From Hypericibacter terrae (GTDB lineage Bacteria > Pseudomonadota > Alphaproteobacteria > Dongiales > Dongiaceae): a stretch of DNA of 64,000 bases. The notes beneath the pieces are model-generated. The model saw only the letters and a program-made list of their open reading frames with translations, was not told the origin of the DNA and made no database searches. The position numbers and the translations under genes are program-made. Shown here in pieces: positions 46,690 through 49,908 of this stretch (positions are counted from its first letter, which is position 1; each line of letters begins with the position of its first letter). Location: NCBI RefSeq assembly GCF_008728855.1, contig NZ_CP042906.1, positions 2,976,001 to 3,040,000 of the forward strand, read 5' to 3'.

Positions 46690-48054
46690 ATGGATGAAGG
46701 CCTACCGGCGAACGAGCTTCATGACTATCTGCGCGCCCACCCCGAAACGCGTTTCATCGACGCGCTCTATGTCGATCTGAACGGCTTCGTGCGCGGCAAG
46801 CGCTATCCCGCCGACAAGGCCGGGAAGCTCTATTCCAGCGGCATGCAGATGCCCGAAGCGCATTACATCCTCTACGCGATCGGCGATTCCGTGGACCCCT
46901 GCGGCCGAGGCTTCAGCGACGGCGACCCCGATTGCGTGACCTTTCCGGTTCCCGGCAGCCTGGCGCCGGTTCCCTGGGCCAACGAGCCGCGCGCGCAGCT
47001 GCTGATGACGCAGGCGCGCAGCGAGCGCCCGCCCCATTTTGTCGACCCGCGCCAGATCCTGCGCCAGGCGGCCGACCGCTTCGCCACGACCGGCCTCAAA
47101 CCGGTGATGGCCTTCGAGCTCGAGTTCTACCTGCTCGATCCGGCGCCGGATGCCCAAGGTCGCCCGCAATCGCCGATCCAGCCCGGCAGCCGGCAGCGTC
47201 TCGTCAGCATGCAGACCAACTCCATGGAGGAGCTCGACGCCTTCGGCAGTTTCCTCGCCGAGGTCGACAAGGCCTGCCGCGCGCAAAACATCCCGAGCTC
47301 GGTCGCCTGCACCGAGTTCGCAACCGCGCAATACGAGATCAATCTCGACCATGTCGACGATCCGGTGCTGGCCGCCGACCATGCCATCCTGCAGCGGCGC
47401 GTGATCAAGGCGGTCGCCCAACGACATGGGATGCAGGCAAGCTTCATGTCGAAGCCGTTCCTCGACCGCAATGGCAGCGGCACCCACATCCATATCAGCC
47501 TGCTGGACAAGGCGGGGCGCAACGTCTTCGACGACGGCTCGGCGCTCGGCAGCGCCACCCTGCGCCACGCGATCGGCGGCCTGCAGGCGTCGATGGCCGA
47601 GGCGATGGCGATCTGCAGCCCGAACCTCAATGCGTTCCGCCGCTACGGCCCCAACCGCTTCGTGCCGGTGAACAAGAGCTGGGGCGCCCAGAACCGGTCG
47701 GTCGCCTTCCGCATTCCCGGCGGATCGCCCAAGGCGCGGCGCATCGAGCATCGCGCCGCCGGCGCCGACGCCAACCCCTATCTGGTCGCCGCCGCCCTCC
47801 TCGCCTCGATCCAGCATGGCATCGAGAACCAGCTCGATCCGGGCCAGCCCGCCGAGCAGCGCAATGTCAGCGGGGAGGTCGATCCCGACCTGCCCTTCGA
47901 CTGGATGGCCGCGGTGGACCGGCTCGAACAGGGTACGATCCTCAAGCAGGCGATCCAACCGCTCTATCTGCAGATCTACGCCGCCGTCAAACGCGGCGAG
48001 CATGCGCAGATCATGAGCGAGATCATCCCGCGGGAGTATGCGTGGTACTTGTGA
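46690..48054 (+). CDS. Glutamine synthetase family ligase (gamma-glutamyl-amine synthetase-like)
   Basis: A 454-residue ATP-dependent gamma-glutamyl ligase of the GlnA3/PuuA type. N-terminal beta-grasp FIDALYVDLNGFVRGKRYP, catalytic domain with AFELEFYLLDP (Mg-binding Glu), EFATAQYEINLDHVDDP, NGSGTHIHISL, and the ATP/glutamate segment SVAFRIPGGSPKARRIEHRAAGADANPY. Lacks the adenylylation loop Tyr of true GS and is a paralogue of PuuA (gamma-glutamylputrescine). Amine substrate may be a polyamine, ethanolamine or methylamine. It ends 7 bases before the EF-G fragment gene. Confidence 0.83.
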   Translation: MDEGLPANELHDYLRAHPETRFIDALYVDLNGFVRGKRYPADKAGKLYSSGMQMPEAHYILYAIGDSVDPCGRGFSDGDPDCVTFPVPGSLAPVPWANEPRAQLLMTQARSERPPHFVDPRQILRQAADRFATTGLKPVMAFELEFYLLDPAPDAQGRPQSPIQPGSRQRLVSMQTNSMEELDAFGSFLAEVDKACRAQNIPSSVACTEFATAQYEINLDHVDDPVLAADHAILQRRVIKAVAQRHGMQASFMSKPFLDRNGSGTHIHISLLDKAGRNVFDDGSALGSATLRHAIGGLQASMAEAMAICSPNLNAFRRYGPNRFVPVNKSWGAQNRSVAFRIPGGSPKARRIEHRAAGADANPYLVAAALLASIQHGIENQLDPGQPAEQRNVSGEVDPDLPFDWMAAVDRLEQGTILKQAIQPLYLQIYAAVKRGEHAQIMSEIIPREYAWYL

Positions 48055-48061
48055 GGGATCG

Positions 48062-48952
48062 ATGGGTGATTCAATGCTGCCCCTCGTAACAGTCACACTT
48101 GAGCCCAGCGTGAAGCGCGATTGGGGCAGGATGGCCGACGCCCTCGCGCAACTCACCGCAGGTGACGACTCCTTTCATTGCAGCATCGATCGTGACAACC
48201 GACAGATCATTGTCGGCACGCAGAGAGAAACCGAGCTTCAAGACGCGCTCACGCGTCTCGATCGAGAATTTCACGTGAAGGTCAATGTCGGGCCTCCACA
48301 GGTGTCCTATCGCGAAACCATTACGCAGGCGATCGAGTCAGATTGCGTTCATAAACTGGAAATAGGCGGCCCCGACGCGTTCGTCCGCCTTAGAGTCCGA
48401 TTTGAGCCTCTGCCCACAGGCGAAGATATTTCGTTCGGAAGCGTGCCGAACAGTGACAAACTCATCCGCGAGATCCTTCCGATTGTCGAAAAGGGTTTGA
48501 AGGCCGCGATGCAGTCCGGACCGGTCGCGGGTTATCCGATGATCGGCGTCCGGGCAACGCTGATGGACGCCGAGCGCCAAAATGCCGATGCACCGTTAGC
48601 GACCTTTTGTATCGCTGCGGGCGCTTGCTATCGCGAAGCCGTTCCAAAAGCCCGGCCGACCTTGCTTGAACCGATCATGATTGCGGATGTGATAACGCCG
48701 GACGCTTATATGGGCGATGTCATTGGCGACTTGAACAGTCGGCGCGGACTGATAGACAGCATGGAAACCCAGGGCGAAGAGAGAGTCATCACCGCAGAAG
48801 TGCCGTTGGCCAACCTGTTGGGTTATGCGAAATCTTTGAGCGCCCTGACCCGCGGGGAAGGGAGCTTCACAACGAAATTCAGCCGCTGGGAGCCACCGCT
48901 CTTGCCGTTTGAGGGACCTCCCTTCCGACCGGCCATCGGCATGCGGGCGTAG
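48062..48952 (+). CDS. Stand-alone C-terminal part of elongation factor G (domains III-V)
   Basis: A 296-residue protein that lacks any GTPase (G) and domain II. From residue 5 it reads LPLVTVTLEPSVKRDWGRMA like the start of EF-G domain III, then NVGPPQVSYRETI (domain III/IV junction), GPVAGYPMIGVRATLMD and ARPTLLEPIM (domain IV), and DVIGDLNSRRGLIDSM, AEVPLANLLGYAKSLSALT (domain V). The GELHL element is degenerate and the tip loop that holds His583 in E. coli reads ERQNADAPL. By hand count over about 55 codons roughly two thirds end in G or C, lower than in the flanking genes. Either a relic of a duplicated fusA or a real trans-acting factor. 7 bases after glnA-like gene. Confidence 0.8.
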   Translation: MGDSMLPLVTVTLEPSVKRDWGRMADALAQLTAGDDSFHCSIDRDNRQIIVGTQRETELQDALTRLDREFHVKVNVGPPQVSYRETITQAIESDCVHKLEIGGPDAFVRLRVRFEPLPTGEDISFGSVPNSDKLIREILPIVEKGLKAAMQSGPVAGYPMIGVRATLMDAERQNADAPLATFCIAAGACYREAVPKARPTLLEPIMIADVITPDAYMGDVIGDLNSRRGLIDSMETQGEERVITAEVPLANLLGYAKSLSALTRGEGSFTTKFSRWEPPLLPFEGPPFRPAIGMRA

Positions 48953-48972
48953 CGGGTCGCCCAATGCACGCT

Positions 48973-49908
48973 TTATAGCCGCCCCAGTCTCTCGATCAGC
49001 AAATCGAAGATCCGCGGCGCGTCCGCTTCCTCGAAGGCTTCGACATTGGCGGGGCCGCCCCAGAGGCCGCGCCAGTCGGGGACGGTCATGCCGAGCGTGA
49101 GCGGGCTTCCGGTCTCGACCTTGATCGCGAGGCGCGAGCCGCGGAACAGCTTCGGGTCGAGCAGCCAGGCGATGGTGCAGGCATCATGGAGCGGCGCGCC
49201 GAGGCCGCCTTCAGCCATGGCCTCGGTACCGAGATAGAAATCCATCAGGTCTGCGACGGTGCGCGCGGCTGCACTCTTCGACGCCCGCAACCGATCCACA
49301 TGCTCCTGGCGCGCCCGTATCTTCCAGGTCACGTCCAGCGGAAAGAGCGCGATCTCGATGCCGCTGTCGAAGACGATCTGGGCCGCGTGGGGATCGACGA
49401 AGACATTGAATTCCGCGGCCGGCGTCATGTTGCCGCCCACACGCAGCGAGCCCCCCATGACGACGAGCTTGGCGATCTTATTCGCGATCCGGGGCTCCCG
49501 GCGCAGGGCCATCGCGATATTGGTCAGGGGCGCGATCGCGGCGATGATGGTGGCATGATCGCCGCGGGCCATCAGGGTCTCGACCAACCAATCCACGGCG
49601 TGCTGCGGCTGCAGCTTCATCCGCGGCTCGGGCAGATGCGCGCCGTCGAGGCCCGACTCCCCATGGATCTCCGGCGAATGATAGGGCTGATTGAGGAGCG
49701 GCCGCTCGCAGCCGGCAAAGACCGGAACGTCGCCGCGCTTGGCCAATTCGCAGATCCGCAGCGCGTTCCGCGCGGTCAGGGGCGCCGCCACATTGCCTGC
49801 CACCGTCGTCAGGCCCAGCACCTTCAGTTCCGGCGAAGCGAGGGCCAGGAGAATGGCGATGCAGTCGTCCTGGCCGGGATCGGTATCGATGATAAGCGGC
49901 AGCGCCAT
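48973..49908 (-). CDS. Nucleoside hydrolase (IunH family)
   Basis: Calcium-dependent N-ribohydrolase of 311 residues that splits purine or pyrimidine nucleosides. Signature DTDPGQDD (8-15), then VAGNVAAPLTARNALRI, EFNVFVDPHAAQIV, and H in PLHDACTIAW. No signal peptide. Convergent with the EF-G fragment gene. Specificity unknown. Confidence 0.87.
   Translation of the reverse strand: MALPLIIDTDPGQDDCIAILLALASPELKVLGLTTVAGNVAAPLTARNALRICELAKRGDVPVFAGCERPLLNQPYHSPEIHGESGLDGAHLPEPRMKLQPQHAVDWLVETLMARGDHATIIAAIAPLTNIAMALRREPRIANKIAKLVVMGGSLRVGGNMTPAAEFNVFVDPHAAQIVFDSGIEIALFPLDVTWKIRARQEHVDRLRASKSAAARTVADLMDFYLGTEAMAEGGLGAPLHDACTIAWLLDPKLFRGSRLAIKVETGSPLTLGMTVPDWRGLWGGPANVEAFEEADAPRIFDLLIERLGRL

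Follow-up and report, generated by a model that had tools for sequence, protein, structure and literature searches.

The coupling of GTP hydrolysis to the movement of domain IV in EF-G is a central question of translation. An engineered fragment of EF-G that consists of domains III to V, EF-GC3 (PDB 2mzw), folds and binds FusB with an affinity comparable to that of whole EF-G (PMC4725979). Ribosomal protection proteins of the TetM/TetQ type are described in PMC4342817 as EF-G-like, with domain IV loops unlike those of EF-G and with the whole EF-G domain structure. The EF-Tu genes tuf are translation-factor paralogues that gene conversion homogenises (PMC3150367). Their copies are almost identical. 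In the open-licence PMC literature, we found no description of natural EF-G genes that lack the G domain. The novelty of the stand-alone III-V family reported here is provisional. It was studied from one gene in a window, the whole analysed stretch of 64,000 nucleotides, which belongs to a genome of one contig and 5.89 Mb (G000).

The gene for EF-G domains III to V and its neighbourhood

The window gene encodes EF-G domains III, IV and V only. An initial annotation had described a 296-residue EF-G protein with a clean reading frame, no G domain or domain II nearby and a glutamine-synthetase-like gene upstream, and these statements were borne out. The gene and its upstream context are as follows.

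48062-48952 including the stop codon, + strand: stand-alone EF-G domains III-V gene (type A), 296 aa, based on Pfam, homologues, omega and the structural model
48053-48057, + strand: weak Shine-Dalgarno sequence GAGGG, read from the sequence, lying across the stop codon of the preceding gene
46690-48054, + strand: glutamine-synthetase family gene (PF00120, catalytic; by Pfam), given as context outside the system

No internal stop was present in 48062-48952 (+), and 296 codons were intact before the stop codon. The Pfam scores of the protein were 38.5 bits for EFG_III (cut-off 27), 79.2 bits for EFG_IV (cut-off 24) and 90.6 bits for EFG_C (cut-off 27.9). These three families spanned residues 7-278, and no further Pfam family was matched up to an E value of 1. 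The G domain and domain II were absent from the protein, and the adjoining genes were assigned to PF00120 and, downstream on the opposite strand, to PF01156 (nucleoside hydrolase). The full-length EF-G models of NCBIfam matched the protein over about their last 270 positions only, far under the cut-off, and the tet_protect model gave 85.7 bits against a cut-off of 775. In agreement with the initial annotation, the window gene was not a frameshifted fusA, because the genome has its own full-length fusA elsewhere (G000:C1:3200710). This fusA lies 176 kb away and is 48% identical to the window protein. An EF-G-like paralogue at 1075569 (L003) showed 30% identity. The motif that had been given as LFGYA-type reads LLGYA in the sequence. 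A Shine-Dalgarno site was present as stated, but it is weak and lies over the upstream stop codon. An alternative in-frame ATG is found at 48038, and the start at 48062 agrees with the start in the relatives.

The glutamine-synthetase family gene stops 7 nt before the start codon of the window gene, and the two are probably cotranscribed. The GC content at third codon positions (GC3) was 0.657, the lowest in the window, against 0.78-0.93 for its called genes, in line with the lower value that had been noticed. The gene was missed by a codon-usage gene finder that had been trained on the window (codon score -7), which indicated that its codon usage is atypical. In a genome of the same genus (G001, one contig), both flanking genes were present 136 bp apart without the short gene. 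They were 88% and 83% identical in DNA to those of the window, and the EF-G relatives found in that genome were full-length only.

48057-48982, no strand: segment of 926 bp between the same two genes, replaced in G001 by an unrelated 136-bp spacer

This site meant either a gain in the line of the window's genome or a loss in that of G001, and both directions would give the same result.

Relatives of the short form and the C-terminal tail

At least 11 type A genes were found in 11 alphaproteobacterial genomes of four orders, with lengths of 293-302 aa. All 11 shared the start point just before domain III, a length of about 300 aa and a C-terminal tail.

48911-48949, + strand: C-terminal tail, residues 284-296, EGPPFRPAIGMRA, common to 11/11 type A genes and not in fusA

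The consensus of the tail is approximately D-D-x-F-P-x-A-A-x-[ML]-R, and the end of fusA differs. The tail was examined with a 13-residue profile from which each of five lineages was left out in turn. The background consisted of 588 C-termini of called genes in the loci, from which EF-G genes (two motifs) had been dropped, minus five matching short genes. The tails were anchored by hand at [ML]R, and each background sequence was given its best 13-mer in the last 24 residues. The 11 left-out tails scored 14.3-31.3, all of them above the 583 background C-termini (maximum 7.8). For the window tail, with its own sequence excluded from the model, the score was 14.3 and the highest background value 3.3. 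Since the DNA of the tail varies at synonymous positions, the peptide is what has been kept. A frameshift of fusA was considered as the source of the tail and was rejected, as no match was seen by eye.

The genome samples overlapped and the thresholds were strict, so that the type A counts are lower bounds. Type A genes were present in 4 of 17 genomes of the window's family (G000, G004, G008, G010) and in 5 of 96 genomes of the order of G020 (G020, G322, G365, G385, G387). Searches with the tail model were run at E <= 1e-10 or 1e-11, and weak tails may escape them (the type A gene of G922, A_G922, scored 9.1e-13). With a 40-column tail model, the tail was found among the matches listed in at least 3 of 385 genomes of a class-wide sample (G000, G020, G764). 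Matches with the tail stood first in this listing. The remaining listed class matches ended at or before model column 28, except for G786, a read-through past the stop. The tail was present in one of four genomes in the order of G764, in one of 396 in a phylum sample (G000 only) and in one of 317 in a further order (G922).

The initial annotation had asked after the short form in other species with the same neighbours. The short form does occur in 10 other genomes, but the contexts differ between lineages, and no shared surrounding pointed to one pathway. What we take to be an rpmE-like (L31) gene lies about 110 bp before the short gene on the same strand in G387 (L163:398-1303, -) and G385 (L164:2043-2951, -), and a presumably prfC-like gene lies 2.4-4.3 kb from it in G365 and G020. 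In G004 and G010, the type A neighbours were a small membrane-type gene and a second short form, type B. In G922, the short gene stands just upstream of an rpsL-rpsG-fusA arrangement (str cluster), in which rpsL and rpsG are our assumed names.

L237:3918-4811, - strand: short gene of G922, about 1.7 kb before fusA
L237:157-2232, - strand: fusA of G922

A general stand-alone role fits these varied contexts better than a role in one pathway. GC3 was also recorded across the loci. In 6 of the 11 type A loci, the short gene had a lower GC3 than every other called gene of its stretch (the window, L162, L163, L164, L165 and L202, in genomes G000, G322, G365, G385, G387 and G764), hinting at weak expression or foreign origin.

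Type B is a divergent form (n = 3), found in three of the four type A genomes of the window's family.

L072:8720-9610, - strand: type B gene of G004
L073:7842-8732, - strand: type B gene of G010
L071:7468-8358, + strand: type B gene of G008

Loop I of domain IV is deleted in type B. In 3/3 cases, a gene for a small membrane-type protein lay immediately upstream, with a Pfam YcxB match in 2/3, and in G004 and G010 the order was type B, then type A.

Three further candidates for the short form were rejected, and their matches to the family model stopped before the tail. G309 (L166) was a fusA interrupted by the contig end, G342 (L167) an EF-G-like gene leaving its contig, and G305 (L168) an EF-G2-like gene in two frames. 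The last (L168:5474-7327, +) was read in frames of 258 and 317 aa, either a broken gene or a sequencing error. In 13 genomes of the class with two strong matches, all 32 listed frames were at least 643 aa long. A scan of genome contigs gave 35 loci, with frames of at least 667 aa in the 33 that were scored (L062 and L069 left out). Matches were obtained in 1195 of 72,556 plasmid records and 43 of 50,697 phage records, all below 60% identity. Among those listed (40 and 20), identity was at most 44%; the named ones were fusA or EF-G and many were unannotated. The only match on a viral contig (IMG/VR) was a full-length gene.

L232:2756-4861, + strand: full-length EF-G of 701 aa on a viral contig

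A phage or plasmid origin of the window gene was rejected on these identities and this full-length locus. Judged by sequence, the type A family is rare, real, unusual and under selection.

Domain conservation, predicted structure and selection

The domains of the window protein were compared at 127 columns, each at least 97% conserved in 110 fusA.

48080-48292, + strand: domain III, residues 7-77, by Pfam; degenerate, with 18/39 fusA-conserved columns kept
48296-48652, + strand: domain IV, residues 79-197, by Pfam; 29/47 kept
48662-48895, + strand: domain V, residues 201-278, by Pfam; 23/41 kept
48356-48385, + strand: domain IV tip loop I, residues 99-108, LEIGGPDAFV; fusA Q100, G105, Q106 and A108 lost
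48572-48595, + strand: domain IV tip loop II, residues 171-178, ERQNADAP; conserved His changed to Gln173 and Ser to Ala177

Across 13 short genes, the columns kept were 12-27 of 39 in domain III, 27-46 of 47 in domain IV and 23-36 of 41 in domain V. Domain III was the most degenerate in 12 of the 13; the exception was A_G322, in which domain V was lowest. Domain III of EF-G touches the G domain, and its drift is as expected once this contact is gone. The fewest conserved columns in domain V were those of the window copy, which was also second lowest in domain IV among the type A genes tested. Residues 99-108 are what we take to be tip loop I, and the His replaced by Gln173 is presumably the translocation His (compare the PDB title 'EF-G H573A'). 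This His was present in 9/9 other type A genes compared. For the four changes His173Gln, Ser177Ala, Gly105Asp and Ala108Val of the window copy, the fusA residue was kept by eight or nine of these nine. The loss of the domain IV tip residues suggested that the window copy is probably not a translocase.

The predicted structure had a mean pLDDT of 82.6 and was confident except at both ends. It resembled EF-G in the structural comparison that the initial annotation had proposed, with the ribosome-bound 7pjz among the best fits (TM 0.84, 2.5 A). Several crystal structures fitted less well (2bm0, 0.68), and 1wdt fitted about as well (0.83).

Selection was estimated with a codon model of four sequences in which the short-gene branch had its own rate. 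For the window gene, omega was 0.121 over residues 76-240 (better than 1, p 7e-9), 0.090 in domain III (p 1e-4) and 0.032 in domain V (p 0.001). The length of the branch makes these values rough, and in domains III and V they depend on an assumed tree that may be incorrect. The branch length was very long, 1.89. In three relatives, omega was 0.045-0.062 for residues 76-240. The dN/dS ratio, which the initial annotation had proposed to compute, thus came out well below 1 (0.03-0.12), which favours purifying selection on the window copy, although a recent loss of function may have occurred in it.

These data bear on whether the gene is a relic, as the initial annotation had allowed. An EF-G duplicate that is in decay or was broken recently, and whose frame is open by chance, would explain the lowest GC3 of the window and the failure of the gene finder to call the gene, the long branch, the disappearance of conserved tip residues solely or chiefly from this copy, and the absence from the same-genus genome. 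The fewest conserved domain V columns together with the atypical codon usage would also be compatible with early decay. However, the 296 codons are intact, omega on the branch is well below 1 in three segments, the C-terminal tail has been kept although fusA does not have it, and homologues of equal length occur in 10 other genomes. Decay was considered quite improbable, and the relic reading, which does not agree with the tail, the homologues of the same length and the omega values, is unlikely.

Mosaic origin, candidate function and known systems

The origin of the type A body was examined against the 110 fusA, 44 of which belonged to families f1 and f5. The window gene came nearest to the fusA of its own genome (46.4%), followed by that of the next genus (45.0%). 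The best match was in the own genome for A_G008 (73.4%) and in the own genus for A_G322 (70.9%) and A_G764 (47.1%). Apart from A_G922, 10/10 type A genes matched the fusA of their own family best, with a margin of 0.1% in A_G387. The type B genes had no clear preference. The initial annotation had suggested that the gene was acquired. The site without the gene in G001 and the atypical codons agree with this. A simple foreign origin does not account, however, for a body whose nearest fusA, if only narrowly, is that of the same genome.

In a 54-row tree built from domains III-V, holding the short genes as one clade lowered the log-likelihood by 70 (p 0.006). One group of short genes stood with the fusA of the window's family and one inside the fusA of family f5. 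The window gene stood beside the fusA of its genus (93/98), and A_G764 was without firm placement. When only the middle (domain IV with the beginning of V) was used for the tree, a single type A clade was rejected (p 1.6e-9), and the short genes mostly grouped with the fusA of their hosts, not together. The window gene stood beside its own fusA with a support of 90, and this placement was lost in the wider set with A_G922 and more fusA. The placement appeared to be of moderate strength.

The profile of A_G008 against its own fusA gave the nucleotide identities (%), in 15-codon steps, of 51, 40, 46, 68 and 68 in the 5' flank, of 95, 91, 93, 91, 93, 97, 91, 93, 95, 97 and 93 in the tract, and of 73, 68, 64 and 33 in the 3' flank. 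The tract, codons 76-240, was set from this profile. Nucleotide identity was 0.939 inside and 0.595 outside it, and at codons for identical residues the synonymous differences were 20/150 inside and 22/57 outside (p 1.6e-4). In a free block scan, 4 of 2000 permutations attained the observed value. A_G322 gave a similar contrast with its resident fusA, with identities of 0.877 inside and 0.680 outside, and synonymous differences of 36/150 and 38/74 (p 7e-5; 0/2000 permutations). Two synonymous ages are not expected of a single duplication date, so the middle of A_G008 and A_G322 was recopied from the resident fusA. By these sequence comparisons, both genes were shown to have undergone gene conversion in the middle, which comprises domain IV and the first part of V. 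In the window gene, the tract gave 38/86 versus 29/46 (p 0.046) and was not significant in the block scan (467/2000 permutations). Identity over the tract was 0.655 to the gene's own fusA and at most 0.602 to nine others. No significant tract was found in seven other tested type A genes or in A_G922.

In the flanks, the best tree of the first set united all 13 short genes, 5.6 log units over the free search. For A_G922, the nearest fusA along the entire gene was its own, at 76% in the flanks and 64% in the middle. When A_G922 and more fusA were added, A_G922 joined its own fusA in the flank tree (98) and most others were unplaced. The results for A_G922 meant either one family overwritten to differing extents or a repeated origin with a convergent tail. 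The latter would require that each lineage duplicated the rear part of its resident fusA, starting at the natural Met ahead of domain III, and that the tails converged on a short binding motif. The preference of ten type A genes and A_G922 for fusA of their own family, the position of A_G922 beside its own str cluster with its own fusA nearest outside the middle too, and the rejection of a single clade for both the whole body and the middle are in its favour. It has to account for a tail that five lineages share and that stands out from 583 background C-termini, for the flank tree that joined all 13 short genes (rival grouping p 0.43), and for two significant tracts, which show that bodies can be replaced. 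Such repeated births remain a real possibility, to which we give clearly less than an even chance. Because of the tail, the sequence data incline us somewhat towards one overwritten family.

The window protein is, with high confidence, a stand-alone EF-G III-IV-V protein and a member of a rare, tail-bearing alphaproteobacterial family. The family is defined by the loss of the G domain and domain II and by the conserved tail, and the body of the window protein is related to the fusA of the host lineage. Without a GTPase, it would not drive translocation. It may bind, independently of GTP, the sites of EF-G domains IV and V on the ribosome or the partners of EF-G, and this binding may modulate or compete with EF-G. 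The tail may give a second contact or regulation. This mechanism, a GTP-independent binder of EF-G sites or partners, is put forward tentatively. A selected III-IV-V family protein with such binding is our best explanation as a whole, though we would not rate it at even chances. The trans-acting translation factor of the initial annotation is plausible from the sequence. The degenerate domain IV tip of the window copy argues against an ordinary contact with the decoding centre, and this copy probably binds elsewhere than at the canonical A-site contact.

Two further proposals connect the recopied middle with function. It is doubtful, though conceivable, that a GTPase-free mimic of EF-G spread as one family in alphaproteobacteria, with domain IV recopied from the fusA of each new host and thereby staying matched to the ribosome or to attackers of EF-G, as a competitor, sensor or decoy. 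A decoy or immunity protein in the narrow sense would offer domains IV and V as bait for a toxin, a modifying enzyme or an antibiotic and would be kept matched by conversion. The middle refreshed from the resident fusA in two members, the drift of domain III in most and the sporadic distribution are consistent with it. However, no defence-type neighbours were noticed by eye in the loci read, the middle of the window copy is just 54% identical to its own fusA, and conversion may merely follow sequence similarity; we regard this decoy as unlikely. An argyrin decoy may be one form of it; the argyrin pocket sits at the interface of EF-G domains III and V.

A natural III-V protein of this kind, free of the GTPase and carrying a conserved tail, would offer a ready-made separation-of-function molecule and might represent a new means of regulating or protecting EF-G. 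The conversion tract is a clear case of a truncated paralogue refreshed by a full-length donor.

Compared with known systems, the short gene is most like EF-G (FusA) itself in fold and sequence, with EFG_III, EFG_IV and EFG_C and 48% identity to its own fusA. It differs by the missing G domain and domain II, by a D/P-rich tail instead of the fusA end, by the degenerate domain III and, in the window copy, by the lost domain IV tip. EF-GC3 of Staphylococcus aureus EF-G has the same cut: it comprises just III-V with about 300 aa, is stable and can bind a partner (PDB 2mzw; PMC4725979). It is a laboratory construct, whereas the window gene is natural. The EF-G2 and EF-G-like paralogues are likewise divergent EF-G relatives beside fusA. 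However, the paralogue of the window's genome (L003) has a full frame of 707 aa with a GTPase-like N-terminus, while the window protein has 296 aa and is nearer to fusA. In contrast to the TetM/TetQ-type proteins with their whole domain structure, the window protein consists of III-V only. As in tuf, recombination acts on a translation-factor paralogue, but in type A it concerns the central tract only, in a truncated and diverged paralogue.
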